This document shows, piece after piece, positions 1 to 16,818 of a DNA stretch of 38,609 nt. The notes below the pieces were generated by a model, which worked only from the letters and a program-made list of their open reading frames with translations, did no database searches and was not told the origin of the DNA. Position 1 is the first letter of the stretch; the number at the start of each line of letters is the position of its first letter. Both the position numbers and the translations under genes were made by a program. This DNA is from an uncultured Myxococcales bacterium (lineage in GTDB: Bacteria; Myxococcota_A; UBA9042; DTJE01): contig CAINDP010000118.1 of NCBI GenBank assembly GCA_903847405.1, positions 1 to 38,609 of the forward strand, read 5' to 3'.

Positions 1-12
1 GGGACCGCCTGA

Positions 13-102
13 AGGCTGTCCCCCCGTCCCAGGCTGTCCCCCCGTCCCAGGCTGTCCCCCCGTCCCAGGCTGTCCCCCTGTCCCGGCCTGTCCCCCCGTC
101 GC
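13..102. repeat. 18-bp tandem repeat, five units
   Basis: Five head-to-tail units of 18 bp, consensus AGGCTGTCCCCCCGTCCC, start at 13, 31, 49, 67 and 85; the last two units are slightly diverged. The AGGCTGTCCCCC part equals the right arm of the first 26-bp palindrome at 14325. The array lies downstream of the stop codon of the minus-strand gene that ends at 136. I see no gene in the first 135 bases, although something could enter from beyond the left edge. Confidence 0.85.
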
Positions 103-135
103 TCCACCACCATGCCGTCCCCCCTCGTCACGGGG

Positions 136-2706
136 CTACAACCCCTGGGCCCGCACGCGGATCGCGACGGTGGCACCCGGCGCCAGGTCGATTGCCGGCG
201 TCTGCGCCGACGTCGTCTGGAACAGCGAGGTCCAGCGTTGCACCGCATCCGTCGCCACCGGCACACCGTCGACCGCGAACTCCGGCGCACCCGACGGCGC
301 GTCCCAGCGCATGGCCAGGCGCCACGCCGTCACGTCCGCGGAACCCGCCCGCCGGGTGACCTGCACCACCGCCTCGCCCGCCACGCTCCGCTCGACGACC
401 AGATCGAACCGCTCGCCGCCCGCGCGCAGGCCCCGGAAGGCCATCCGCGGCCACCCCGCAGGCAGATGGGGCCGCAGCGTGATCCCCTGCGACGTGGCGT
501 CGGGCCGGAAGCCCACCAGGTATCGCAGGACCGCCTCGGCCACGATTCCCCCCTCCCAGGGCCGGAACTTGGTCGTGTAGTCGCCCAGCGCGCCGATCGG
601 GTCGTAGGCGATCGAAAGCCCCGAGTGGTCGTCGTAGATCATGTACTCGACCAGGTTTCCCGACGTGTCCAGGTCCGTGCGGACGGCCGCGAAGGCCGCC
701 GCCGCCTGGGGATGCCCGGTGTCCGTCATGGCGGCCAGCGTGTACCCGGGCAACATGCCGGTGTAGACCCCTTCCCAGGCGAACGTGCCTTCGTACAGTG
801 GGTCCGGACGGCTGACGATCTCGCCGGGGGCCCGCCCCAGTTGCTTCACCAGGCAATCCAGGGACGACTGGGCCAGCGGGTCGTCCCCGTCCTTCCACCC
901 GGACCAACTGACCTGGAGGGCCACGTCCTCGAACGGCAGCGACATCTGCAGCGTGTCCATCCAGGCGAACGCCGCCATGCACCCGTCGGTCCTCTGGAAG
1001 TGCGGGACGGAATCGCGTTCGACTTCCGCCGACAGGGCGCGAACCTCCTCGCCCTCCGCGACCTTCCCCAGGGCACCGGCCAGCCGGTCCAGTTCCCGGG
1101 CCGCCCCCAGCCACAGGAACGTCGAGTTCGCGGACCACGTCAGGTCATGGTGGGCATACTCCAGATCCAATCCGAAGGCCGCGTTCATGGCGGCCCGGTA
1201 CGTTTCGTCGCCGGTGAAGGGCAGCAGCCGGTCGATCCCGAACCCCTGGGCGAACAGGCACCGCCGCAGCAGGCCCCACCGATCCGTCGCCCGCGCCGGA
1301 TCCCCCGTGTACCGGTGGTGCAACCCGTACATGGTCACCATGTAGGACGGCGTTTCGCCCGCCACCCGGCCTTCCAAAGGCGCCATCGCGGCCCACTCCG
1401 GAGCCGCCGGCGCCGTCGTGACGTCCAGGTCCGCGTCGTAGCTGTTCTTCAGGTCGCCGGCGTACCGGATCGCCGCGTACACGTAGTCCAGCATGGCCTC
1501 GACGTCCTCGAACGCGCCGTACGCCAGCAGCGCCATGACCGGCCCGATGTTGTCCCGGGCCCACGTCCGCGTGTACTGGGACATCGGGCAGGTGGCGCCG
1601 GTCGCCGCGGTCTGGACCTTCAACGTCATCTTCATGCCGTCCAGGAAGTCCGCCACCATCGGGTCCGGGACGTCGGCCTGGACCGTGCCCGCTTCCCATC
1701 CGGTGTACGCCGTCGCCGCCGCGCCGAGGAACGCGGACATCGCCAGGGCCGGATCCTCGGTGAACCACCCGGGAACCGCGTCCGCCTCGGCGGTTTCGGC
1801 CGGGGCGTCGCCGGTGCAATGGGACAGCAGATGGACCGATTCGCCGCCCGGCGCCACGGGTTCCAGGCCCAGCACCAGGCGGCCGTCGATCGCCGATGCC
1901 GTCGCGCCGACGACGCCCTGGAACTGCGTGGCCAACCGGCGGACCCGCCCGTCGGAGGGGGCCTGGGTTTCCAGGAGGGTGCCGGCCGCCGGCGACGTCA
2001 CGGGGTTCGTCGGGACGACCACGATGGCCAGGGGTTGGGACGCAACGGCGCCGCGGTTCCGGACGATCACCTGCCGCAGGAAGCACGTCAGCGGGGCCTC
2101 GCCGCTGCCCGCCGGGGGCGCCAGATCGATCGTGTCCAGTTCCAGGTCGCCCAGCCGCCCCCGGGTCACGACGACCGGCGCCGACAGGCTGCGGCCGGCC
2201 CATTCCTCGTCGAAATCGGGAGGCGTCTGGTCGACGGCCCGCGCCAGGCGGATCGCGTAGTCCCCGAAGAAGTTGGCGCGACGCTCGTAGGTCGGCCCGA
2301 TCAGCGAATGCAGCGTGTTCAGCGGATCGGCCAGCCCCACGAACCCGAAGACCCGGCCGTTGCCGGTCCCGAAAGCCCCGCGATGGCCCACGTTCGGACG
2401 CGCGGCCACCGGGCCCGTGACATGGGTCGCATACCGGCTCATGCGGGCGAACGCCTCGGGGTGCTGCGCCGGGACCGTCCCGTCCAGGGGGAATCGGTCG
2501 GGCACGGTCCAGGCGACGCCCTCGGGGAGCCCGTCGGGAACGTCGGGCATGTCGGCAACGTCCAGCGCGTCCGACGCGTCCGCCGACACCTCGTCGCCGC
2601 CCTCGGGAGGCACGTCCGCCCCCGTCAGATCCGCCCCCGCCCCGGCCCCCGACCCGCACGCCGCCGCCAGCAACAGCACCGCCGCCCATCCCGCGCTTCG
2701 CACCAT
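136..2706 (-). CDS. Lipoprotein with six-hairpin glycosidase-like domain
   Basis: 856 residues. The start at 2706 gives a lipoprotein signal with lipobox cysteine at residue 17, followed by a GA- and Asp/Pro-rich linker; an in-frame upstream extension would bury this signal, and a GAGGG sequence precedes the chosen ATG. The body has the feel of an (alpha/alpha)6-barrel glycosidase: an aromatic/acidic TWARDN motif near residue 383, alternating helical segments, a DLTWSANSTFLW segment near residue 525 and a C-terminal beta-rich domain with LRPHLPAGWPRM, as seen closing many six-hairpin glycosidases. I infer hydrolysis of a polysaccharide or oligosaccharide at the cell surface; I cannot assign a GH family or substrate. 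It is followed in the window by other secreted hydrolases. Confidence 0.7.
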   Translation of the reverse strand: MVRSAGWAAVLLLAAACGSGAGAGADLTGADVPPEGGDEVSADASDALDVADMPDVPDGLPEGVAWTVPDRFPLDGTVPAQHPEAFARMSRYATHVTGPVAARPNVGHRGAFGTGNGRVFGFVGLADPLNTLHSLIGPTYERRANFFGDYAIRLARAVDQTPPDFDEEWAGRSLSAPVVVTRGRLGDLELDTIDLAPPAGSGEAPLTCFLRQVIVRNRGAVASQPLAIVVVPTNPVTSPAAGTLLETQAPSDGRVRRLATQFQGVVGATASAIDGRLVLGLEPVAPGGESVHLLSHCTGDAPAETAEADAVPGWFTEDPALAMSAFLGAAATAYTGWEAGTVQADVPDPMVADFLDGMKMTLKVQTAATGATCPMSQYTRTWARDNIGPVMALLAYGAFEDVEAMLDYVYAAIRYAGDLKNSYDADLDVTTAPAAPEWAAMAPLEGRVAGETPSYMVTMYGLHHRYTGDPARATDRWGLLRRCLFAQGFGIDRLLPFTGDETYRAAMNAAFGLDLEYAHHDLTWSANSTFLWLGAARELDRLAGALGKVAEGEEVRALSAEVERDSVPHFQRTDGCMAAFAWMDTLQMSLPFEDVALQVSWSGWKDGDDPLAQSSLDCLVKQLGRAPGEIVSRPDPLYEGTFAWEGVYTGMLPGYTLAAMTDTGHPQAAAAFAAVRTDLDTSGNLVEYMIYDDHSGLSIAYDPIGALGDYTTKFRPWEGGIVAEAVLRYLVGFRPDATSQGITLRPHLPAGWPRMAFRGLRAGGERFDLVVERSVAGEAVVQVTRRAGSADVTAWRLAMRWDAPSGAPEFAVDGVPVATDAVQRWTSLFQTTSAQTPAIDLAPGATVAIRVRAQGL

Positions 2707-2734
2707 GAATCGAGCCCTCGCCTGAAGCGGTCCT

Positions 2735-2764
2735 AGGGTAGCGTGGAGGTGCCCGAGACGTCCA
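2735..2764 (-). promoter_or_regulatory. Candidate promoter for the glycosidase-like lipoprotein
   Basis: On the minus strand TGGACG (2759-2764), an 18-bp spacer and TACCCT (2735-2740) lie about 30 bp upstream of the start at 2706. The match to the sigma-70 consensus is modest. Confidence 0.3.
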
Positions 2765-2806
2765 CCGAGGAATACTGAAAGGGGATCCGGGAGGTTGGGA
2801 AGAAAC

Positions 2807-4423
2807 CTACCTGGCCTGGCAACCGCCGCCGGTCGGGGCGCCGCCGGCGTCATTCGACAGGGTCTTTTCGCAACCGGGAGTGCCCGGGTTGCCGGCGCAG
2901 AAGATCTGACGGATCTCGTCGGCGGTCAGGGCGCTGGCGGGCTGACGGTTGTTCACCAGCCACGACGGGCTGGCGCTGACTCCCAGTTCCTGGCCGATGG
3001 CGGCGTCCGCGGCCAGCAGCTTCCGGCCCTCGGGACCCTTGGCGCACTTCTCGATGACCGCGGCCTTGATCGGGCCCTTGGCGCAGGCCTTCCAGTCCGG
3101 CGACTCGATGGCCTGGTTCCGGCACCACACGTAGTCCAGCCACAGGTTGTCCTTGCCGTACTTCGCGCTGGCGCAGATCTGGCGCAGGTCCTCGTCCACC
3201 TCGGCCTGGCCGTGCAGCGAGTCGATCGCCCCGCCCTCGCCGACATCCGCCAGGAAGTGGACCTTGAAGTCCATCTTCTTCCCGAAGGTGGCCAGGACTT
3301 CCTTCATGGCGTTCATCGCGACGATGCCGTAGGGGCACTGGCTCATGACGAACACCTCGAGGGTGCCCTTCCGTTCGGGACGGCACGCGAAGTCGGCCGT
3401 GCACCCCGGGTCGTCGCAATCGATCTTCCCGTTCCCGTCGTCGTCGGTCCCGTTGCCGCAGATCTCGGCCGTCGGATCGAAGCCGGCGTCCACCGTCAGC
3501 AGGCGGTAGGGCCCGGCCGCCTCGAAGTACTTTTCGATCTGGGCGAACGACGGGTCCTTCGTGACCTCCTCGCTGAACAGGAAGGCCGGCAGGAACTTCT
3601 GGTCCGCCGCCCGCAGGGTCGCATACAGCGCCTTCCCGTCGTCGCTGCCGTACTCCAGGACGCGGTCCTTCAGGCCCGGGAAGATGCCGCGCAGTTGCTG
3701 CAGGCCGATTTCGACGGCCTTTCCACAGGGTTCGCACCGCGGGTCGGTCAGGACCGTCAACGGGACGGTCACCGGAACCGGCAGCGTCGCGCAGACCGCC
3801 GGCTTGCCGCCGGTCACCAGGCCGCACAGGGTGCGCAGGTACGATTCCGTCGTGCGGGGACCCTCGAACGGCTTGCCGTTGACGGCCATCGACGGGGACC
3901 CCTGGACGCCCAACTGCTCCGAGTGCTGGAACGACGCCTTCAGCAGCGCCTTCCCCTCGTCGCCTTCGGCGCAGGCCGTCACGGCGGCCACGTCGATGCC
4001 GGCCTTCTGGGCGCAGGGCCCGAAACTGTCCGGTACGGACTGGGGATCGATGTTCATGCAGGAAATCACCCCGCGGTACGCCCGGGGCGCCAGTTTCGCC
4101 GCACAGGCCTGCAGCAGGTCCCCGCGCAGTTCCGGCTCGCCGTGCATCGAGGTCAGACTGCCGTCGTCCTCGACCCCGCCGATGAAGTGCAGGCGGAAGT
4201 CCACCGCGTCGCCCAACTGCTCCAGCGCCGGGAACAGGGCGCTTTCGGCCTGGACGCCGTAGGGACAGCGCGACATCACGAACAGTTCGACCTGGACCGG
4301 TGTCGCCGCGACCTCGGCGGCGACCGGCTTGGGCGGCGTGTCATCCGCCTTGCGGGAGTGGCAGCCCAGGGTCAGCAACAGGGCGACGGCCACGGTCGAA
4401 ACAGCCAGCGTGCGAGCCATCAT
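2807..4423 (-). CDS. Lipoprotein with three thioredoxin-fold domains
   Basis: 538 residues. The tandem ATG at 4423/4420 follows GGAGGG; the signal peptide ends in a lipobox (LTLGC, Cys21). Three thioredoxin-like domains follow. Domains 1 and 3 carry CPYG at residues 53-56 and 363-366 in the context FVMSxCPYG, each followed by Cys-rich helices and a probable cis-proline (GSPS and SASPSW), as in DsbA/GILT-like proteins. Domain 2 has a true CEPC pair at 230-233 and FLPAF as probable cis-Pro. Between domains 2 and 3 is a short acidic module, CGNGTDDDGNGKIDC (about 322-336), like the putative metal-binding motifs common in Myxococcota. I infer periplasmic or outer-membrane thiol-disulfide or thiol-carrier chemistry; substrate unknown. 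The reading frame stays open far upstream, but that part overlaps the epimerase gene and is not real coding. Confidence 0.8.
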   Translation of the reverse strand: MMARTLAVSTVAVALLLTLGCHSRKADDTPPKPVAAEVAATPVQVELFVMSRCPYGVQAESALFPALEQLGDAVDFRLHFIGGVEDDGSLTSMHGEPELRGDLLQACAAKLAPRAYRGVISCMNIDPQSVPDSFGPCAQKAGIDVAAVTACAEGDEGKALLKASFQHSEQLGVQGSPSMAVNGKPFEGPRTTESYLRTLCGLVTGGKPAVCATLPVPVTVPLTVLTDPRCEPCGKAVEIGLQQLRGIFPGLKDRVLEYGSDDGKALYATLRAADQKFLPAFLFSEEVTKDPSFAQIEKYFEAAGPYRLLTVDAGFDPTAEICGNGTDDDGNGKIDCDDPGCTADFACRPERKGTLEVFVMSQCPYGIVAMNAMKEVLATFGKKMDFKVHFLADVGEGGAIDSLHGQAEVDEDLRQICASAKYGKDNLWLDYVWCRNQAIESPDWKACAKGPIKAAVIEKCAKGPEGRKLLAADAAIGQELGVSASPSWLVNNRQPASALTADEIRQIFCAGNPGTPGCEKTLSNDAGGAPTGGGCQAR

Positions 4424-4446
4424 GGGACCCTCCAGAATTCCGGCAC

Positions 4447-4475
4447 AGGGTACACCCGTCGAACCCGATTGGACA
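4447..4475 (-). promoter_or_regulatory. Candidate promoter for the thioredoxin-fold lipoprotein
   Basis: Minus strand TGTCCA (4470-4475), 17-bp spacer, TACCCT (4447-4452), about 24 bp upstream of the start at 4423. Spacing is ideal, the hexamers are weak. Confidence 0.3.
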
Positions 4476-4497
4476 GTTCTGGCGCCCGCGAACCGCG

Positions 4498-5483: not shown

Positions 5484-7775
5484 CTACTTGCCGGTCGGGT
5501 GCGGGGGCAGGCGATCCGGGAAGTCGGCCGGGACCAGGACGTCCGCCTCTTCCTTCAGGCGGTAGAACTGCTCGGCCGCCCGGATGACCTCGAACAGGGC
5601 GTCCTCGAAGCTGTTGGTCGAATCCTTCGTCAGGTCCTCGCCCCACCGGTTCGTCACCTGGTTCACGAAGAAGTGGCCGCTGTTGCACTCCTGCGTGAAG
5701 CCGTCCCGGCTGATCTTGGTGATCGCGCACTCCTCGTGCGTGCCCTTGCACTGCGCCTCGGAGCACGTGAACATGCCCGCGTCGTCCTTGTAGCAGTTGC
5801 AGTACCGCTCGCCGGTATCGTCCTTGCGGTAGCAGCACTGCCCGTCGGGCGCCATCAGCACGAAGCGCGGCGTGGTTCCATAGCCCCAGGTCAGGTTCAT
5901 GATGGCGGTGATCGCGATGGTGTCCTTCAGGGGCATGCCCACGCCCGGCAGGATCAGGCCCAGCGGATACCGGGTGGTCGCGTTCACTTCCGAATCGTAC
6001 TCCGGGGGCAGGTTCACGGCGTACCAGCGCCGCTGGCCCAGGATTTCGCTGTAGTACGACCGGTACTCGATGCGCCCGTCGAACTCGTAGTTGTCCACCC
6101 ACATCGCGTCGGGCAGGCGGGCCATCGTCATGGTGTACAGGACGCCGGCACGCAGCGACACCTCGGTCCCGTTGCCCACGTGGCCGCCGCTGCCGCTGAG
6201 GGGATCGGCGGTGGGGTCGCCGTAGCCCATGATCGCGGCATCGCCGAAGGACTTGCGGGACCAGTCGATCCCGCCGAGGTCCATCATGACGTCCTCGTTC
6301 AGGGAGTTCGGCAGCATCGCGTCCGGGTTGCCGCCGAAGTCCATGTACCGCTTCACGTTGATGCCGCGCAAGGTCAGGGCGTTGGCCGCGTGGACCATGT
6401 GGGTCAGCGCGTGCAGCGCGTCCCGGATGCCGCCATCGAAGTAGTACTGCTTCTCCTTCAGCACCTCGATCGGGGCCTTCCGGAAGAAGGAACGGGAATC
6501 GGCGTCGATCATCTTCTGGAGATTCGGGTTGTTGGTGTATTTCCCGTCGCCCTCGCCGAAGTCCTTGAACCCGATCGCCGACTCGGCCAGACCGTCCAGG
6601 CCCAGGTCGCTGAAAATCTCGTCCTCGTCGTACTCGTAGTTGCCCTCGGTGCCGCCGGGGTTGGTCAGCAGGTCGAAATCGTCGCCGTTCGGATCCGTGC
6701 CCTCGACGTAGGCTGCGTTCGGGCCGACCGAGCACCCGCCGTCCCCGTCCTCGCGGACGTTCGGGCAGCCATCGACGCCCCAGTCGCTCCAGCGCTCGCT
6801 CATGTTGATGACCATGGGTTCACCGTAGTCGTGCCGGCCATTGGCGTTCAGGTCCACCGACAGCAGCAGCGGGACGGGCCGCGAGTAGGCGTGGGCGGGG
6901 TCATACGCGGCGGTCAGTTTGCGGAAATCAGGGTTCAACTTCCCGCACTTGTTCGGGTCCCCCTGGTAGCAGCCGACGGGCGTTTCGCCGTCGCAATAGC
7001 CGACCAGGTCGTAGGTGCCCTGGGGGTTGTACTCGACGTTGTAGTTGTAGGGCTTGCCCACCTTGACCGGGTTCGCGCAACGGTCCGAACTGCTGCGCAG
7101 CAACTCGGACGGCTGGACGCCGGGGGGCAGCAGCGGGTGGTCGGGGTTGTAACTGATGATGTTGCCGTATGCGAAGGCCATGCTTTCCAGGACGTCGTTG
7201 TAGAAGTCCCGGTCCCAGGTGCCGCCCTGGGTGTCAAAGTGGAAGTGGTTGAAATCCCATTCGTATTCCCAGGGCTGCTTCTTCACGTTCGCCGTGCCGC
7301 AGAACACCAGCGGGTTGTCCGGGTTGTTGATGTCCGCCAGGACGTCGGGCTGCAGCAACTGGTCCAGAGGGCAGAAGCCGCCACCCATGTACTCGCGGAT
7401 CATGTGGGCCAGGTAGCGGAAGTCGATGTAGCCGCCCAGGCCGCCGGCCGCGTCGAACCACTCGGGGTGGTGGGCCGCCACGGTCAGCGCCATCGCGCCC
7501 ATGGACATGCCGGCGACCGTCCGGAAGGTGAAGTGCTTCAACACCATCGGGACGTCCTCGGGAACGTCGGTCACGACGTCCGGGTCACCCGGATCGTCGA
7601 CGGCGTCGGGCGTCGTCACGTCCGGAACGTCCGCCACGTCGGAGGGTTGCGGGGTGTCGGCAGTGTCCAGCACGCCGGGGTCGGTCCCCAGGTCCGCGGG
7701 GCTGTCGTCCCCGCCGCAGGCCGCGAAACCGGCCACCAGGAACATCACCGCGATCGAAACTGCGAAGCGCTTCAC
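5484..7775 (-). CDS. Esterase-like lipoprotein with apparently permuted alpha/beta-hydrolase fold
   Basis: 763 residues from a GTG start preceded by GGAGGG; lipobox Cys20, then an Asp/Pro linker to about residue 77. The nucleophile elbow GMSMG (Ser91) and the helix after it (AMALTVAAHHPEWFDAA) come immediately after the linker, with no room for the strands that normally precede it. The segment that opens an esterase-D/feruloyl-esterase-type domain (YAVNLPPEYD, then RYPLGLILPGVG and FVLMAPDGQ) is instead near the C-terminus, from about 585. It is followed by a Cys-rich insert and the helix SFEDALFEVI that usually leads into the nucleophile. The middle contains DLNANGRHDYGEP, an EF-hand/dockerin-like calcium loop. 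I infer a surface esterase; the catalytic Asp and His are not certain. An upstream ATG in the same frame lacks a signal sequence and is not chosen. Confidence 0.75.
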   Translation of the reverse strand: MKRFAVSIAVMFLVAGFAACGGDDSPADLGTDPGVLDTADTPQPSDVADVPDVTTPDAVDDPGDPDVVTDVPEDVPMVLKHFTFRTVAGMSMGAMALTVAAHHPEWFDAAGGLGGYIDFRYLAHMIREYMGGGFCPLDQLLQPDVLADINNPDNPLVFCGTANVKKQPWEYEWDFNHFHFDTQGGTWDRDFYNDVLESMAFAYGNIISYNPDHPLLPPGVQPSELLRSSSDRCANPVKVGKPYNYNVEYNPQGTYDLVGYCDGETPVGCYQGDPNKCGKLNPDFRKLTAAYDPAHAYSRPVPLLLSVDLNANGRHDYGEPMVINMSERWSDWGVDGCPNVREDGDGGCSVGPNAAYVEGTDPNGDDFDLLTNPGGTEGNYEYDEDEIFSDLGLDGLAESAIGFKDFGEGDGKYTNNPNLQKMIDADSRSFFRKAPIEVLKEKQYYFDGGIRDALHALTHMVHAANALTLRGINVKRYMDFGGNPDAMLPNSLNEDVMMDLGGIDWSRKSFGDAAIMGYGDPTADPLSGSGGHVGNGTEVSLRAGVLYTMTMARLPDAMWVDNYEFDGRIEYRSYYSEILGQRRWYAVNLPPEYDSEVNATTRYPLGLILPGVGMPLKDTIAITAIMNLTWGYGTTPRFVLMAPDGQCCYRKDDTGERYCNCYKDDAGMFTCSEAQCKGTHEECAITKISRDGFTQECNSGHFFVNQVTNRWGEDLTKDSTNSFEDALFEVIRAAEQFYRLKEEADVLVPADFPDRLPPHPTGK

Positions 7776-7895: not shown

Positions 7896-8813
7896 TCACG
7901 GCGCCAGGCGCAGGTCCGCGACGATGGGCCAGTGGTCGGAGGGGAACTTCGGCCCGGTCCCGTAGCGGGTCAGATCCACGCGCCAGTCCGCGGCGGTCCA
8001 GCCCGTCCCCGCGACAAAGACGTGGTCGATGCGGATTGCGGGGTCGTACGTCAGGGGCGGCACGTCGTTCGAATCCACGTGGGGTTCCGGGGCCAGCGCA
8101 TACGCGTCCTGGAACCGGAAGCCCTGTCCGGCCACGCCGCCCGTCAGGATCGCGTAGGCCGGGTGCGCGGGTTCGGCGTTGAAGTCCCCGACCAGGATCA
8201 CCGGCATCCGGTCGGCCCAGGGCGCCGTGCGCTCCAGGACCATCGGGGCCATCTTTTCCTGGGCGGGGTTGTTCGCGTCGAAGTGCGTCACGGCGAAGAA
8301 GATCTCGCGGCCCGCCAGCCGATCGTTCAGCCGCGCCCAGTGTACGTGGCGCGGGATCACCTGTCCGTCGATCAGCCCGACGGACCACGGGATGTCGGGA
8401 GTGGGGCTCAGCCAGTAGATGCCGTGTTCCAGCACGTCGAAGCGGTCGATCCGGTACATCAACGTCGCATCGGGGTTGGGCAGCCACTGCTCTGCGTCGT
8501 TCCCTTCGTAGTACAGGGCCGCGAAGCCCGGCGCCACGGCGAGGACCTGGGCAACGTCCTCCGGGAACATCAGTTCCTGCAGCCCCATCAGGTCGGGCGC
8601 GTACCGGCTGAAGATGTCCTGGAAGGCCTTCAGGCGCTCCTCCCACGGATCGTAGGTGTCGTCGCACCACGCGCACAGGACGTTGAAGGACATGACCTTG
8701 TACGACGTCGGCTCGGGCGGGGTGTCGGTGTCGCTGCCGCAGGCCCCCAGGATCCAGGCCGCCGAAAGGGCGGCCAGCGCCGTCAACACCCGGATCCCAC
8801 GGGTCGTTCGCAC
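7896..8813 (-). CDS. Endonuclease/exonuclease/phosphatase-family lipoprotein
   Basis: 305 residues from a GTG start preceded by GGAGGG; lipobox ILGAC with Cys25, short linker, then the complete EEP (DNase I-like) fold: MSFNVL with the metal-site Asn, GLQE with the metal-binding Glu, THFDANN, the catalytic VGDFNAEP, IDHVFV and the terminal SDHWPIV. All hallmark catalytic positions are present, so the enzyme should be active. Family members cleave phosphodiester or phosphomonoester bonds in DNA, sphingomyelin, inositol phosphates and related compounds; which applies here cannot be read from the sequence. It begins 25 bp after the stop of the hydrolase gene at 8839, so the two are probably cotranscribed. 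Confidence 0.9.
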   Translation of the reverse strand: MRTTRGIRVLTALAALSAAWILGACGSDTDTPPEPTSYKVMSFNVLCAWCDDTYDPWEERLKAFQDIFSRYAPDLMGLQELMFPEDVAQVLAVAPGFAALYYEGNDAEQWLPNPDATLMYRIDRFDVLEHGIYWLSPTPDIPWSVGLIDGQVIPRHVHWARLNDRLAGREIFFAVTHFDANNPAQEKMAPMVLERTAPWADRMPVILVGDFNAEPAHPAYAILTGGVAGQGFRFQDAYALAPEPHVDSNDVPPLTYDPAIRIDHVFVAGTGWTAADWRVDLTRYGTGPKFPSDHWPIVADLRLAP

Positions 8814-8838
8814 GGGCCCTCCCTGTCGAACCGGCGGC

Positions 8839-10197
8839 CTATTCGGGAACCGCGTGGAAAACGATCTCGTCCCCGAAGGCCGCACCCGCTTCCTGGGTCA
8901 ACCAGGATTCGGACGGGACCGAACCGCGCATGAACCGGTTCAGGAACGAAATCGCGTACTGGTTGATCGCCTTCTGGGCCTGGTTGTAGTCCCAGTTCGT
9001 CACCGGGTTGCAGCCGTCGTCCATGGCGTCCTCGGCGTCCCCCCAGAGGGGCGCGACCTCGGCCAGGTTCATCTTGCACACGTCGGTGAAGGTGTAGTGG
9101 CCGCCGCGCTTGATCGTCAGGAACCACTTCGGCGGCAGTTGCTGCCTCCAGGGGTCCCACTGGGAGATCGTGTAATCCAGCGTCCTGTCCATCTGGCCGC
9201 CCATCATCAGCGTCGGCAGGCTCAGTTCGCTGATCAGGGGCGCGTAGAACTGCGGCGAGATCAGGTCCACCATCGAGCCCTCGGGCGCCATCGGGACGAT
9301 CGCCTTCACGCGCGGGTCCCAGGTGATCGCATACGACGTCAGTCCGCCAAACGAGTGGCCGGTGCTGCAGACGTTGTTGGTGTCCACGCGGCCGTAGAAC
9401 GGGTCGACCGGGTCCAGCACCTTCTTCGCCATCGTGTCGATCAGGAACGTCAGGTCCACCGGGCGCCGGACGGCCGAGTCGAACAACTCTTCCTTCTGGT
9501 AGCCGTACACCATGATCTCGTACAGCGTGTTGTCCTCGTGATCGGGCGACATCACGACATAGCCGTGGGAGGCCAACTGGACGGTGAAGAACACCGTCTG
9601 GTACCGGATGCCGAAGGCGCCGTGGCTGAACAGCGCCAGGGGCCACTTCGTTTCGCCGACCCGCACCGGGGCGCCCCAGACCGCCGCCGTCGGGTACAGG
9701 CCCAGGTCGATGCCCTCGTACTTGGCGCGCAGGGCGTCGGTCCCGTCCGCCTTGATGTCGTAAACGAACCCGGGCTTGCCCCGCTGATCCTCGGTGGTGG
9801 GATACCAGATCTCGGTGACCAGGGTCCGCGGCGTGCCGTCGGCGTTCGGGTTCAACGGGTCCGTGTAGGTGTAGCGCATCACGCCCACCGGGAACGGGCC
9901 GAAGGCGCCCGGGTCCGGCGCGTGGGTCGGGTCGGCGGCGCACAGGCCCTCGAAGCAGGAGGGCTCGGCGGCCGGCAACTCAGGCGGAACGTCGGCTGGC
10001 ACGTCGGCGGGCACGTCGGCGGGCACGTCGGCCGGCACGTCGGCCGGAACGTCCGCGGGCTCGTCCTGAGCAACGTCGAAGGGCACGTCGGTCACGCCCG
10101 GGTCCGTCGCCGTCGACGAACTGTCGCACGCCACGATTCCCACGCACAGGAAGCCCGCCACCGCGAGCGTCATCACGAACATCCCGGTCTTTCGCAT
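8839..10197 (-). CDS. Alpha/beta-hydrolase lipoprotein, PAF-acetylhydrolase/dienelactone-hydrolase-like
   Basis: 452 residues; ATG preceded by GGAGGAA; lipobox GIVAC with Cys24. Then comes a linker with repeated ADVP units (six 12-bp repeats in the DNA). The hydrolase domain has VTEIWYPT, the oxyanion strand LALFSHGAFG, ASHGYVVMSPDHEDN and the nucleophile elbow GHSFGG with Ser near residue 281. A later MMGGQMD strand likely carries the acid and KRGGHYTF the catalytic histidine. This order matches the plasma PAF-acetylhydrolase-like/dienelactone-hydrolase-like group. I infer a surface ester hydrolase; substrate unknown. It is the probable first gene of a two-gene unit with the downstream EEP lipoprotein. 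Confidence 0.88.
   Translation of the reverse strand: MRKTGMFVMTLAVAGFLCVGIVACDSSSTATDPGVTDVPFDVAQDEPADVPADVPADVPADVPADVPADVPPELPAAEPSCFEGLCAADPTHAPDPGAFGPFPVGVMRYTYTDPLNPNADGTPRTLVTEIWYPTTEDQRGKPGFVYDIKADGTDALRAKYEGIDLGLYPTAAVWGAPVRVGETKWPLALFSHGAFGIRYQTVFFTVQLASHGYVVMSPDHEDNTLYEIMVYGYQKEELFDSAVRRPVDLTFLIDTMAKKVLDPVDPFYGRVDTNNVCSTGHSFGGLTSYAITWDPRVKAIVPMAPEGSMVDLISPQFYAPLISELSLPTLMMGGQMDRTLDYTISQWDPWRQQLPPKWFLTIKRGGHYTFTDVCKMNLAEVAPLWGDAEDAMDDGCNPVTNWDYNQAQKAINQYAISFLNRFMRGSVPSESWLTQEAGAAFGDEIVFHAVPE
9988..10059 (-). repeat. Six 12-bp repeats encoding an Ala-Asp-Val-Pro linker
   Basis: Six units of 12 bp (plus-strand form CACGTCGGCGGG and variants) run without interruption inside the hydrolase gene and encode the linker between lipid anchor and enzyme. 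Because the unit is four codons, copy-number change keeps the frame and only changes linker length. Confidence 0.85.
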
Positions 10198-10234
10198 CGG
10201 TTCCTCCATGCTGGTCGCCACTCCACCCGGCGGC

Positions 10235-10263
10235 ATTATAGGGAGTTTCCTAGTTCGAGGTAC
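10235..10263 (-). promoter_or_regulatory. Candidate promoter of the hydrolase-EEP unit
   Basis: A perfect TATAAT lies on the minus strand at 10235-10240, 38 bp upstream of the start at 10197. The 17-bp-spaced -35 position reads GTACCT (10258-10263), which is weak and overlaps the 3' end of the preceding gene. Confidence 0.5.
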
Positions 10264-11728
10264 CCTGGCACTGCACTGCCGGCACGATCTGGCATTCGGT
10301 CCCCTCGGCCAGGGGCTTTCCGGCCAGCCGGTCCTTCAGCCACGCCTTCTGCTCGGGCATGGACCAGAAGGATCCCTGGGAGTGCAGGGCACCCTGGCAC
10401 TCCAGGTACTGCATCCGGTATCCCTGGCCGCACAGCGTCGTGAAGGAGCCCTTTTCAATCCCGACGTCCACCAGTTCGTCGGCGCCGGCCATGACCCACA
10501 GGACGGGCGCATCGGCCCCGCGCGGGAACGAGGTCGTCGTCAGCGAGTTCTGCTGGAACCAGCAGCCCCAGGGGTCCATGCCCGACAGGCCGGTGGCCTC
10601 CAGGCCCGCCAGGAAGGGCGCTTCGAACTCCTGCTGCGCGGTCACCCCGTCCAGGGTTCCATAGAAGTCGCACCGCGTGTCCAGCGCCACGGGGAACGTC
10701 GTCCGGAAGTGCCCGGGTTCGGTGTCGGTCAGCGTGGTCGCCAGGACCTCCTCGTGGCCGTAGTAGCGGGCCGAAGCGACCAGGAAGGCGCTGAGGTTCG
10801 ACATGGACAGGCGGCTTTCGCGGATGGAAATTTCGGACTGGGCCTGGAGGTTCGCCGGCGGGGTCAGGGCGATGGTGGCCGGGACCTCGAACTCCGGGGC
10901 GTACCACCGGGCCAGGCGATCGGCATACAGCGCGGCATGCCCGCCCTGGGACGCGCCCCAGGGAACGACGCGGCGCTCGGGCCGGGCCGGCTCGTCGGTA
11001 ATTTCCCCGGACGACAGCAGCGCATAGGCGGCCCGCACGGCGTCCCACCCGGCGACGGCGGCCGGTTCCCCGACGAGGTAGGGGTGCTTCATTTCGGAGG
11101 GCGCCCCGAAGGCGTTCATCCCCAGGTAGTCGGGCGCCACGCTGATGTAGCCCAGCGCGGCCCACAGGGCGGCCAGGGCGTTGCCTTCGATGCCCAGCGA
11201 CGGCGCGCAGCCGTCCGAGGCGCCCGAGGTCCCGTGCATCCACATCACCATGGGGTAGGTCGCGGCGCCGCCGTCATCGCGCTGGGGAACCGCCACCAGG
11301 GCCGTGGCCCGGCGCGGAACGCCCTTGTCCTGCGTCGTGTAGGCGATCTTGTACATGCGCGTGCCGAATTCCAGCGGAGCGGCGGCCCCGAAGCCGGCGC
11401 CGATGATCGCGTCCTCCAGGATTTCCTTCGGCTGGGCCCACATCGGGTCCTCTTCCCAGGAAACGACGGCGCCCACCTCGGCTGCGGGCAGCCAGGCATA
11501 GGCGGGCAGGCCGCAGCCCCCGGGCACGACGTCCGGGGAACCGGGATCCCAGGGAAGGTCGGCCGGGACATCGGCCAGGACATCGGCAGGAAGGTCGCCC
11601 AACGCGTCGGCAACCACGTCAGCCCCGCCCAGGTCGACGTCGGACGCGCCGTCGTCCCCGCAGGACGCCAGGGCCATCGCCGCCAGCGCCATCGTCATCG
11701 CCATCATCGAACCGGATCGCCTGCGCAT
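10250..11728 (-). CDS. Alpha/beta-hydrolase lipoprotein, secretory-lipase-like
   Basis: 492 residues; ATG preceded by GGGGAGGAA; lipobox LASC with Cys23 and an Asp/Pro-rich linker. The domain begins with a strand-rich segment (KIAYTTQDKG, RRATALVAVP), the oxyanion motif MWMHGTSG, GYISVAPDYLGM, the nucleophile elbow GASQGG with Ser near residue 259 followed by HAALYADRL, and late GADELVD and CQGALHSQ segments that could hold the acid and histidine. The GASQGG elbow and the APDYLG segment resemble fungal/actinobacterial secretory lipases (LIP family). I infer surface lipase/esterase activity. It is followed on the same strand by a second hydrolase lipoprotein with its own likely promoter. Confidence 0.85.
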   Translation of the reverse strand: MRRRSGSMMAMTMALAAMALASCGDDGASDVDLGGADVVADALGDLPADVLADVPADLPWDPGSPDVVPGGCGLPAYAWLPAAEVGAVVSWEEDPMWAQPKEILEDAIIGAGFGAAAPLEFGTRMYKIAYTTQDKGVPRRATALVAVPQRDDGGAATYPMVMWMHGTSGASDGCAPSLGIEGNALAALWAALGYISVAPDYLGMNAFGAPSEMKHPYLVGEPAAVAGWDAVRAAYALLSSGEITDEPARPERRVVPWGASQGGHAALYADRLARWYAPEFEVPATIALTPPANLQAQSEISIRESRLSMSNLSAFLVASARYYGHEEVLATTLTDTEPGHFRTTFPVALDTRCDFYGTLDGVTAQQEFEAPFLAGLEATGLSGMDPWGCWFQQNSLTTTSFPRGADAPVLWVMAGADELVDVGIEKGSFTTLCGQGYRMQYLECQGALHSQGSFWSMPEQKAWLKDRLAGKPLAEGTECQIVPAVQCQGTSN

Positions 11729-11914: not shown

Positions 11915-14314
11915 ATGGCGGTTCGTTTCGGTTCGAAGGGTTCGACGGCATTCACCACCATCGCGGCCACCCTGCTGGTGGCGGCGGCCCTGGCGGCCTG
12001 CGGCGGCGGGAAGGGCGGGACCGATGCCGCATCCGATCCCGGCCCCGGCGACCTGGCCGACGTGCCGCCGATCGACGTGCCCGCGGTCGACGCACCCGAC
12101 GTTCCCGACGTCCCCGAGGACCCCGACGTCCCGGGCACCGCCGAACTGCCCACGCTCCCCAACCTGACGCCCCTGGTGAACGTCTTCATCGGCACCACGG
12201 CCGCCGGCAACGTGATTCCCGGTCCCAGCGTCCCCCGGGGCATGATGAAACTGTCCCCCGACACCAACGCCAGCAGTTCGGCGGTCGAGGGCTACAACTA
12301 CGGCGACAGCAAGATCCAGGGCTTCAGCCACACGCACCTCGAGGGCCCCGGCGGTTCCACCAACGGCTACAGCCAGATCCTGTTCATGCCGACGACCGGC
12401 CCGCTGAAGACGAACGTGAAGGACTACGCCTCGGCCTTTTCCCACGACGACGAAACCGCGGCGCCGGGCTACTACGCCGTCGGCCTGAAGGACTACGGCA
12501 TCCAGGCCGAACTGACGTCCACCGCAAAGTGCGGCATCCACCGCTACACGTTCCAGAATGCGGGCGAGGCGCGCGTGCTGATCGACCTGGCCCGGACCCG
12601 CGGGCAGGCGCTGATGGGCACCCTGGCCCTGGTGGGCGACCGCCGGGCCGAGGGCTACGGCAAGTACATCGTGAACTCCCTGATCTCGATCGGGCTGGCG
12701 GACACGAACCCCACCACCGGCGAGTCGACGGTCTACTTCTCGGCGGAACTGGATCGGCCGTTCCTGCCGACCTCGGCCACCTTCCCGACGGGCGACTCCA
12801 TCGGCGCCCACCTGGACCTGTCGCCCGCGGCCGGCGACGTCGTGACGGTGAAGGTCGGGATTTCGTACATCTCGGTCGCGCAGGCCCGCAAGAACCTGGA
12901 AACCGAGTGCCTGTCCGAGTCCTTCGAGGACGTCCGGGCCGCCTCCGTCGCCGCCTGGAACCGCAAGCTGTGGCGCGCGGAGGTCACGGGCGGGACGACG
13001 GAGCAGCAGCGCATCTTCTACACCGCCCTGTACCACTCGTTCCTGGTGCCCGTGGACGCCACCGAGGACGGGAAGTTCTTTTCCGGCTGGGACGAAAAGG
13101 GCCAGGTCGTCGAGGCCAAGGGCTGGAAGTACATGACCGACGACTGGTGCATCTGGGACACCGGCCGCGTCACGCACCCGCTGCACACGATCGTCGATCC
13201 GGAATCGCGCTCGGACATCGCCCAGAGCCTGGTCCACACCTACGAGGCCGGCGGCTGGATGGCCAAGGCCACGTGGAACGCCCTGGGCGACTCCCGGTGC
13301 ATGACCGCCAACTTCCAGTTCTGCGTCATCGCCGACGCGTACCGCAAGGGCTTCCGGGGCTTCGACGTCGAAAAGGCCTGGGAGGGCATCTACAAGGGCG
13401 CCACCCAGGACTGCGTGAACAGCCTGCAGGACATCACGTGCGCCTACCTGAACCAGGGCACGCCGCCGGACTACATCAACCTGGGCTACGTCAGCGAGCA
13501 GTGCGATGGCATCCAGTCGGCCAGCACGACGCTGGAATACGCCTACAACGACTTCTGCATCGCGCAGTTCGCCGAGGCGATCGGCAAGCCCGATCAGGCC
13601 GCCATCTTCCGCGCGCGGTCGGGCAACTGGAAGAACAACTTCGACTACACGATGGGCTTCTCCCGGCCGAAGAACCGGGACGGCACCTGGCGCGATCCGT
13701 TCGACCTGTTGTCGGACATCGGGTTCTGCGAGGCAGATTCCTGGAAGTACACCTGGCACGTCCAGCAGGACATGTGCGGGCTGGTGGACGCCATGGGCGG
13801 GGTCGCCAAGTTCCAGGCGAAACTGGACGAGTTCTTCGCCGACGGCCACTTCTCGATGGACAACGAGCCCGACTTCCAGACGCCGTTCCTGTACAACTAC
13901 ATCGGCAAGGCGGCCAAGACCCAGGATCTGACGCGGAACCTGCTGGCCCGGTATTTCAAGGACGCGCCGGACGGCCTTCCCGGGAACGACGACTCGGGCG
14001 CCATGTCGTCCTGGGCGGTGTTCGCGATGATGGGCCTGTACCCGGTGGCGCCGTCCGACGACCACTACGCGATCACGTCGCCCGTGTTTGAAAAGACCGT
14101 GCTGCACATGGATCCCGAACGCAAGGCGGGCATCGACTTCGTCATCCAGGCGGACGACGTGTCGGACACGAACCGCTACATCCAGTCGGCCACCCTGAAC
14201 GGCGTGGCGCTGAACCAGCCGCGCATCGCCCACGCCGACATCGCGAAGGGCGGGACGCTGGTGCTGAAGATGGGGGCGATGCCGTCGCTGTGGGGCGAGG
14301 CGCTGTGTCCGTGA
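11915..14314 (+). CDS. GH92 alpha-mannosidase lipoprotein
   Basis: 799 residues; GGGAGG precedes the ATG; lipobox ALAAC with Cys29 and a DVPD-rich linker to about residue 80. GH92 signatures are clear: VNVFIGTTAAGNVIPGPSVP at the start of the N-terminal beta domain, the GFSHTHLEGPG substrate/Ca region, WDTGRVTHPL in the (alpha/alpha)6 barrel, and GNDDSGAMSSWAVFAMMGLY, which contains the acidic residues used by this inverting, calcium-dependent family. GH92 enzymes trim alpha-linked mannose from N-glycans, mannans or mannosyl-phosphates; the exact linkage cannot be told. Length is normal for the family. It converges with the PIG-L deacetylase gene, with two palindromes in the gap. Confidence 0.95.
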   Translation: MAVRFGSKGSTAFTTIAATLLVAAALAACGGGKGGTDAASDPGPGDLADVPPIDVPAVDAPDVPDVPEDPDVPGTAELPTLPNLTPLVNVFIGTTAAGNVIPGPSVPRGMMKLSPDTNASSSAVEGYNYGDSKIQGFSHTHLEGPGGSTNGYSQILFMPTTGPLKTNVKDYASAFSHDDETAAPGYYAVGLKDYGIQAELTSTAKCGIHRYTFQNAGEARVLIDLARTRGQALMGTLALVGDRRAEGYGKYIVNSLISIGLADTNPTTGESTVYFSAELDRPFLPTSATFPTGDSIGAHLDLSPAAGDVVTVKVGISYISVAQARKNLETECLSESFEDVRAASVAAWNRKLWRAEVTGGTTEQQRIFYTALYHSFLVPVDATEDGKFFSGWDEKGQVVEAKGWKYMTDDWCIWDTGRVTHPLHTIVDPESRSDIAQSLVHTYEAGGWMAKATWNALGDSRCMTANFQFCVIADAYRKGFRGFDVEKAWEGIYKGATQDCVNSLQDITCAYLNQGTPPDYINLGYVSEQCDGIQSASTTLEYAYNDFCIAQFAEAIGKPDQAAIFRARSGNWKNNFDYTMGFSRPKNRDGTWRDPFDLLSDIGFCEADSWKYTWHVQQDMCGLVDAMGGVAKFQAKLDEFFADGHFSMDNEPDFQTPFLYNYIGKAAKTQDLTRNLLARYFKDAPDGLPGNDDSGAMSSWAVFAMMGLYPVAPSDDHYAITSPVFEKTVLHMDPERKAGIDFVIQADDVSDTNRYIQSATLNGVALNQPRIAHADIAKGGTLVLKMGAMPSLWGEALCP

Positions 14315-15408: not shown

Positions 15409-16818
15409 ATGGAACGGCGGTTCGGGTTTGTTGTGGCGATCCTGCTGGTGGCGGGGCTCTGGACGGCGTGCGGCGGCGACGGCTCCGCGGCCCCGGATGC
15501 CCTGGCGGACACGGATCCGGGCATGGACGTCGCCGGCGACCCGGGGACTGACAGTCCCGGCGACTTGCCGCAGGACGACAAGCCCGTGGACGTTCCGGGC
15601 GACGCGCCCCTTGCCGACGATGGCGTCGACGACACCGCCCAGATCCCCTTCCCCGAACTGGACCCGGCCGTCTGCCGCCTGGCCGCCCCGATCGATCTGC
15701 TGGGCTTCAATCCCGCCTATGTCCCGCCCACCGGCACCTCGATCCTGCAGGACAAGGCCTGGTTCCTGCTGACCGCATTGATGCAGGTGCCCGACGCCCG
15801 CGCTGCGGTGACGAATGATCCCGCCCTGCTGGCCCTGTCGACCGCCCGCACGGCCGCCCTCCGGGACGCCGCCGCCACGTGCGGGGCCGACGCCACCTGC
15901 CACGCCGTACACCTGTCCTGGTCCGCGAAGCAGATCACCGATGTAGCCACGGACCTGGCGCGCGTGCTGAAGACCACGAACGTCACGGCCACGCACCTGC
16001 GCCCCTCGGGCCGGTTCACGCTGTTTGCCGACCTGGACGACGATGCCCTGGTGATCCGCGCGGCGACCGAGGCACTGACCACGTTGCAGGCGACCTTCGA
16101 CAACTACGCCCGGCCGCGACCCGACCTGGAAACGCTGGTGTCCACCGCCTCCACGGCCCACCCCGATGCGCTGCTGTTCTTCGAGCCCCTGCTGCACCTG
16201 GCCCTGGCGGGAGTGAAGGCCGACGAAAGCGACCAGGCCGAGCAGTTCGAGCCCCTGGCCGTCGGCGAAAACAAGAAGGCGCTGGAACGGGCGGCCACGA
16301 TTCAGTGGGACGACTGGCGCTTCACCGTGATCCTGGTCCTGGGCTGGGGCCCCGACGATCTGGCACAACCGTTGTCGGACACGGGGCGCGAGCACTGCGA
16401 CATCGCCGCGACGCGGTGGCAGGCCGGCCTGGCGCCCTTCCTGCTGCTGTCCGGCGGAGCGGTGCATCCGGACCGCACGCCGTACTTCGAAGCCATCGAA
16501 ATGAAGAAGTACCTGGTCGAAACCCTCCTCATCCCCGAAGACGCCATCCTGGTGGACCCCCATGCCCGGCACACCACCACGAACGTGCGCAACGCCTCCC
16601 GCCTGATGCTCCGGGCCGGCATCCCGACCGACCACCCGGCCCTGATCAGTTCGGACTTCCTGCAGGCGCCCTACGTCACGGCCCTGGGCGTCCGGTGCAT
16701 GGCGGACCTGGGCTACCTGCCCTGGAGTTCCATGGCGCAGTTGTCCGACAACGACGACTGCTGGCTGCCCTCGCCGGTATCGCTGTATGGCGACGCCCGG
16801 GATCCCCAGGACCCGTAG
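15409..16818 (+). CDS. Lipoprotein with C-terminal DUF218 (YdcF/SanA-like) domain
   Basis: 469 residues; ATG preceded by GGGGAGG; lipobox LWTAC with Cys21, Asp/Pro linker to about 75. Residues about 80-290 form an all-helical, Ala-rich region that I do not recognise. The C-terminal part has the DUF218 pattern: FTVILVLGWGP opening strand, REHCDIAATRW helix, FLLLSGG strand-turn, EAIEMKKYLVE helix, LVDPHARHTTTNVRNA with the conserved acidic/His/Thr-Asn segment, and ALISSDFLQAPY. DUF218 proteins include ElyC, SanA and YdcF, linked to envelope integrity, but no reaction is firmly assigned. A lipid anchor on a DUF218 domain is unusual compared with the membrane-anchored E. coli members. It is divergent from the PIG-L gene. 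Confidence 0.82.
   Translation: MERRFGFVVAILLVAGLWTACGGDGSAAPDALADTDPGMDVAGDPGTDSPGDLPQDDKPVDVPGDAPLADDGVDDTAQIPFPELDPAVCRLAAPIDLLGFNPAYVPPTGTSILQDKAWFLLTALMQVPDARAAVTNDPALLALSTARTAALRDAAATCGADATCHAVHLSWSAKQITDVATDLARVLKTTNVTATHLRPSGRFTLFADLDDDALVIRAATEALTTLQATFDNYARPRPDLETLVSTASTAHPDALLFFEPLLHLALAGVKADESDQAEQFEPLAVGENKKALERAATIQWDDWRFTVILVLGWGPDDLAQPLSDTGREHCDIAATRWQAGLAPFLLLSGGAVHPDRTPYFEAIEMKKYLVETLLIPEDAILVDPHARHTTTNVRNASRLMLRAGIPTDHPALISSDFLQAPYVTALGVRCMADLGYLPWSSMAQLSDNDDCWLPSPVSLYGDARDPQDP

Follow-up and report, generated by a model that had tools for sequence, protein, structure and literature searches.

Feruloyl and acetyl-xylan esterases of the CE1 type, like esterase D, build the α/β-hydrolase fold in a canonical order, wherein strands β1 to β4 come first and the nucleophile elbow, the Asp motif and the His motif follow. 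The acyl-enzyme mechanism of CE1 enzymes, which employs a Ser-His-Asp triad, is well established. A different arrangement reportedly emerged from the crystal structure of the Penicillium funiculosum PHB depolymerase (Hisano and others, 2006), an enzyme said to have been described there as a circular permutant of the fold. In type 2 depolymerase domains the oxyanion hole follows the triad on its C-terminal side, and the depolymerase of P. funiculosum is listed as a member of this type (PMC2666664). A 2024 survey of α/β-hydrolases mentions permutation only for the peripheral strands β1 and β2, with 3fle, 2z8x and 1lgy as hydrolases whose peripheral strands are permuted or reversed (PMC11878206). 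The protein described herein likewise deviates from the canonical strand order, but it is cut in the core of the fold, before β5. Our search, of mostly open-access literature, found no paper describing a permuted CE1 or feruloyl esterase.

Layout of the gene and its product

The window, meaning the whole 38,609-nucleotide stretch of Myxococcota DNA that was analysed, belongs to a 5.65-Mb genome assembled into 273 contigs. On its minus strand, where all features of the protein lie, an ORF at 5484–7775 with a GTG start codon encodes a 763-residue lipoprotein, which on the evidence of the ORF and its relatives is a circularly permuted CE1/esterase-D-like hydrolase. Identity with 29 aligned relatives ranges from 28 to 72%. 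Residues 1–20 (7716–7775) read as a putative lipoprotein signal ending in AGFAAC, with Cys20 as the likely lipid anchor, and an unconserved Asp/Pro-rich linker (residues 21–77; 7545–7715), of a type that recurs in other proteins of the same genome, is likewise evident from the sequence.

Immediately after this anchor and linker, as a preliminary description made from the letters of the sequence had proposed, stands the nucleophile elbow GMSMG (residues 89–93), with the Ser91 codon at 7503–7505. Profile and model place it in a segment (residues 78–125; 7401–7544) consisting of strand β5, the elbow, helix αC and strand β6, the counterpart of residues 143–183 of 7xrt. A large insert (residues 126–440; 6456–7400; alignment and model) separates β6 from a strand and the GGIRD motif, which is followed by a helix (residues 441–475; 6351–6455; model and canonical-profile alignment) and includes the putative catalytic Asp452 (codon 6420–6422). 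The last strand region, the GGHVG motif with the putative catalytic His532 (codon 6180–6182) and the last helix (residues 476–551; 6123–6350; model and alignment) end in what is canonically the C-terminus of the fold.

The canonical N-terminus of the fold lies downstream, at residues 567–645 (5841–6077; counterpart of 7xrt 26–105), to which profile and model assign strands β1 to β4, helix αA and the oxyanion-hole loop LPGVGM. After a Cys-rich insert (residues 646–700; 5676–5840; alignment), the chain closes with helix αB (SFEDALFEVIRAAEQFYRLKEE) and the C-terminus (residues 701–763; 5487–5675; profile and model); αB canonically leads into the elbow and corresponds to 7xrt 119–146. The preliminary description was correct in locating the fold-opening strands near the C-terminus (NLPPEYD at 588–594, RYPLGL at 602–607 and FVLMAPDG at 638–645) and in noting that they are followed by the helix that normally precedes the elbow, the final helix beginning at about residue 722. 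The Cys-rich insert it mentioned is present at about residues 646–700 but reaches its full size only in the nearer relatives. Two of its residues, Cys647 and Cys697, are invariant in all 30 aligned members and form a probable disulphide.

No part of the family is more conserved than the 315-residue insert between β6 and β7, which is rich in invariant Asp, Asn, Gly and Glu and contains the majority of the family's invariant residues. The EF-hand-like loop reported earlier was found within it, as DLNANGRHDYGE (residues 308–319; 6819–6854; alignment), where it agrees with the loop consensus and is invariant at positions 1, 5, 9 and 12 in 30/30 members. Like EF-hand and dockerin-type loops, this DxNxNGxxDxxE loop has invariant ligand positions, but the flanking helices of those loops are absent, and the model instead shows short strands on either side of 308–319. 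The loop and further D/N/G-rich turns of the insert look like calcium sites. Within the insert, an acidic motif reads DPxxDDxDxxxNPGGTEGNGxFDxGEP; it recurs in LptD/OstA-looking proteins of other Myxococcota (L161, L162 and L163, from genomes G239, G144 and G096). These were rejected as family members, since they are LptD-like and have only the acidic calcium-type motif in common with the family.

Order of the halves in sequence and predicted structure

A single-sequence phmmer search of the PDB aligned the protein to 7xrt, the Bacteroides ferulic acid esterase BT_4077, in two reversed pieces, wherein residues 567–614 match 26–71 and residues 81–113 match 143–176. We cut the 30-member family alignment into an N-part (75–551) and a C-part (552–763). 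The C-part profile covers 7xrt 27–105 and 119–146, and the N-part profile covers 143–183 of the same chain, together with a weak piece at 202–251 that includes the Asp motif, such that the two parts meet at 143–146, just before the nucleophile strand. With the whole-family profile, 7xrt is matched in four pieces that are collinear only once swapped (E 3.7e-16 overall), and the profile also matches many other CE1 enzymes, with their first half aligning to the C-terminus of the family. PF00756 behaves in the same manner among the relatives, where profile positions 1–114 fall at the C-terminus and 111–144 at the N-terminus. This model matches 24 of the 30 members (E up to 0.01) and several relatives score above its cut-off, while the 763-residue protein itself scores 20 bits, just under the cut-off of 22.

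Restoring the canonical order merges these pieces. For a canonical comparison set we used PF00756 proteins gathered from related genomes, against which hhalign placed the C-part at 16–141 (E 1.3e-14) and the N-part at 144–246 (E 4.4e-12) in the natural order, and a single alignment of 216 columns (E 2.8e-26) in the unswapped order. In hmmsearch, several relatives went from two pieces to one on unswapping, as illustrated by the distant relative L031, whose matches of 32.8 and 24.8 bits became a single match of 56.6 bits. Neither the 763-residue protein nor its relatives have the canonical CE1 order, and the order of the 763-residue protein, with the elbow first and the fold-opening strands last, is far beyond chance.

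AlphaFold2, given residues 75–763 and 30 sequences, produced a single packed hydrolase domain for the 763-residue protein (pLDDT 92.4, pTM 0.91) and a comparable model for L031 (pLDDT 88.3, pTM 0.89). In model numbering, to which 74 is added to obtain protein numbering, the chain begins with a strand (11–16), the elbow and its helix (17–28) and a further strand (35–39), followed by the long loop-rich insert. The Asp and His side comprises a strand (369–375) that the Asp motif follows, a helix (382–395), a strand (439–444), the His loop and a helix (462–478), and the C-terminal side comprises strands 494–502, 507–515 and 531–535, helix 542–558, strand 565–569 and helix 649–663. Both the models and structure comparison give an α/β-hydrolase fold with a nucleophile elbow.

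The best solved match found by VIA-align is the P. funiculosum PHB depolymerase (2d80/2d81), with Z 11.9, rmsd 4.0 and 244–246 residues for the 763-residue protein (model 8..665) and with Z 16.4–16.6, rmsd 4.2 and 244 residues for L031; in each case the alignment runs through both parts in the same order. CE1 structures match by half a fold at a time in Foldseek and VIA-align, as is expected of sequential aligners, and model segment 488..669 aligns to CE1 first halves while 2..483 aligns to the second halves of various hydrolases. Residues 585–735 are not a separate domain, and both parts align to one permuted hydrolase. The circular permutation relative to CE1 and esterase D that had been proposed from motif order is therefore supported by profiles, by structure prediction and comparison, and by the 76 distinct relatives described below.

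Distribution and genomic surroundings

Of the 284 Myxococcota genomes sampled, 78 have matches to the N-part profile; in three of the 78 these are LptD-like motif matches only, and most of the 78 hold one copy. The swapped order, for which a wider search of this phylum had been suggested, is widespread: among 76 distinct ORFs whose order was read, some of them partial, the elbow comes first in every member that has both parts. Two ORFs that automatic sorting labelled 'other' follow this order too, their profile matches overlapping at the edges, and two that have no C-part run off the end of a contig. None of the 76 has a canonical first half upstream or a separate C-part-like ORF nearby, and no canonical-order ancestor or duplication intermediate was present among them. 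One member sits on a single 10.3-Mb contig. The genome of the window carries a second copy in the same permuted order (L002, G000:C133:34951-37188; 48% identical), and a scan of genome contigs with window-specific peptides yielded two close relatives. Plasmids and viral contigs yielded no relatives.

Distant members (L030, L031, L032, L035 and L037) have a ZU5-like β-domain directly before the permuted hydrolase, a position that is occupied by the Asp/Pro-rich linker in the 763-residue protein and its near relatives. In the modelled L031 protein (locus 1039-3423, plus strand), residues 43–189 align to ankyrin-B 4d8o with a VIA-align Z of 11.9, and L030 gives a weak Pfam match to ZU5.

The adjoining part of the window (7896–11728, minus strand) encodes lipoproteins of the endonuclease/exonuclease/phosphatase family, of a PAF-acetylhydrolase/PETase-like type and of the secretory-lipase (LIP) type. 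Three predicted secreted ester hydrolases thus lie within about 6 kb. Two more lipoproteins with the same Asp/Pro-rich linker are encoded on the plus strand at 11915–14314 and 15409–16818; by eye, they resemble a GH92-like mannosidase and a YdcF/DUF218-like protein. At 2807–4489 (minus strand) there is a lipoprotein-type ORF, wherein a D/N/G-rich linker separates two apparent thioredoxin/DsbA-like halves with CPYG-type motifs. With its two closest orthologues the gene shares no neighbour, apart from a single weak match in another part of the window.

Predicted function and origin of the permutation

Both halves of the family match CE1 feruloyl and acetyl-xylan esterases and esterase D (PF00756; 7xrt, 1jjf and 7b5v) in sequence, and the Ser, Asp and His motifs and helix αB are common to the two groups. 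The halves stand in opposite order, however, and the permuted family adds the large calcium-type insert between β6 and β7 as well as a lipid anchor. Computation shows the order of the parts and that this order is conserved, the packing into a single domain, and the conservation of the Ser, Asp and His residues. We are highly confident that the protein is a serine esterase with the α/β-hydrolase fold, secreted and lipid-anchored, and that it arose from CE1/esterase-D-type enzymes by circular permutation.

In the proposed scheme, the former N- and C-termini would have become linked, and the αB/β5 loop would have been opened to create new ones. The chain would then run β5, elbow (Ser91), αC, β6, calcium-loop insert, β7 (Asp452), αE, β8 (His532) and αF, and continue through β1, β2, β3, αA, β4, the Cys insert and αB. 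Ser91 would attack the ester with the aid of His532 and Asp452, presumably by the usual acyl-enzyme route, and the oxyanion would be held by the backbone following Ser91 and by the LPGVG/LHGYG loop. The insert at 126–440 occupies the usual cap position of hydrolases, where it may bind calcium and act as a rigid cap that shapes the substrate site, and the anchored protein would reside in the periplasm or at the outer membrane. Judged from its sequence features, the protein is likely a calcium-stabilised, membrane-anchored carboxylesterase, for which feruloyl, acetyl or polyester compounds are the foremost candidate substrates.

Several other readings were weighed. That the gene was rearranged or its frame corrupted in one metagenome-type assembly is conceivable for a genome in 273 contigs, but the same order recurs in 76 distinct ORFs elsewhere, including the one on a 10.3-Mb contig, and we regard this reading as negligible. 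Scarcely more credible is a two-domain protein with an independent C-terminal domain and a coincidental order of motifs. The order was originally deduced from motifs alone, yet the parts complete each other on one template with a seam at 143–146, and they form one packed domain (pTM 0.91) in which the 244-residue structural match spans both. An acyltransferase or binding protein on an esterase scaffold deserves more consideration, although we find it unlikely. By sequence, the N-part has its best PDB match in the PS1 mycolyltransferase domain, and structure comparison indicates that the fold is also that of the antigen 85 group of acyltransferases; against this, Ser91, Asp452 and His532 are kept in all aligned members extending over these positions, and the matches to the fold's first half, carried by the C-part, are feruloyl and acetyl-xylan esterases.

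The preferred reading of a permuted CE1-type esterase leaves the relationship with the type 2 depolymerases to be considered. Type 2 dPHA-scl depolymerases (NF050059; 2d80/2d81) have the same elbow-first order, with the oxyanion-hole half at the C-terminus and the same αB/β5 seam, but are devoid of the 315-residue calcium-loop insert. With such an enzyme as the best solved match, natural permutation of the fold is not new; this kind of rearrangement has a precedent, one that the preliminary description did not contain. The shared order and seam, and the structural match itself, could indicate that both families descend from one permutation event, with ours a divergent branch of type 2. We think this improbable, and slightly more so than the acyltransferase reading, because any two hydrolases cut at this seam would match structurally and because a link in sequence went undetected. 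The curated model NF050059 (280 bits) has no match to the 763-residue protein at E up to 10, nor in the 30 members at 0.01, and hhalign gives a probability of 2.4% between the permuted family and type 2. Each permuted family is instead nearest to a different canonical family. Ours reaches a median of 41.5 bits with CE1, compared with 4 for PHB esterases and -2 for type 2, whereas type 2, sampled as six proteobacterial sequences, scores 27–30 bits against PHB esterases (E 8.7e-16 when unswapped). In a tree of unswapped cores, our family lies beside CE1, and type 2 groups with a PHB esterase. An AU test did not reject a joint clade of the two permuted families (p 0.25, a difference of 12.4 log-likelihood units), and thus independence rests mainly on the profile scores. 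No type 2 depolymerase was found in 96 sampled Myxococcota, in a search whose positive control was on two plasmids.

On these sequence comparisons, the seam was probably cut twice, in two independent permutations, which is better supported than one origin; type 2 depolymerases would derive from PHB esterases and the present family from CE1. We therefore favour, with good though not full confidence, a second, independent and ancient permutation, of CE1/esterase D, at the seam used by type 2, in an undescribed Myxococcota-wide family with a conserved calcium-loop cap between β6 and β7.

Standard domain annotation overlooks or splits such permuted proteins, as illustrated by the 763-residue protein, of which Pfam reports one half only, and that below threshold. 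To our knowledge, natural circular permutation in the core of the α/β-hydrolase fold has been recorded for type 2 PHB depolymerases only. If the same seam has indeed been used twice, this would point to the loop ahead of the nucleophile strand as a site where the fold tolerates a break, a proposal that is open to test by engineering.
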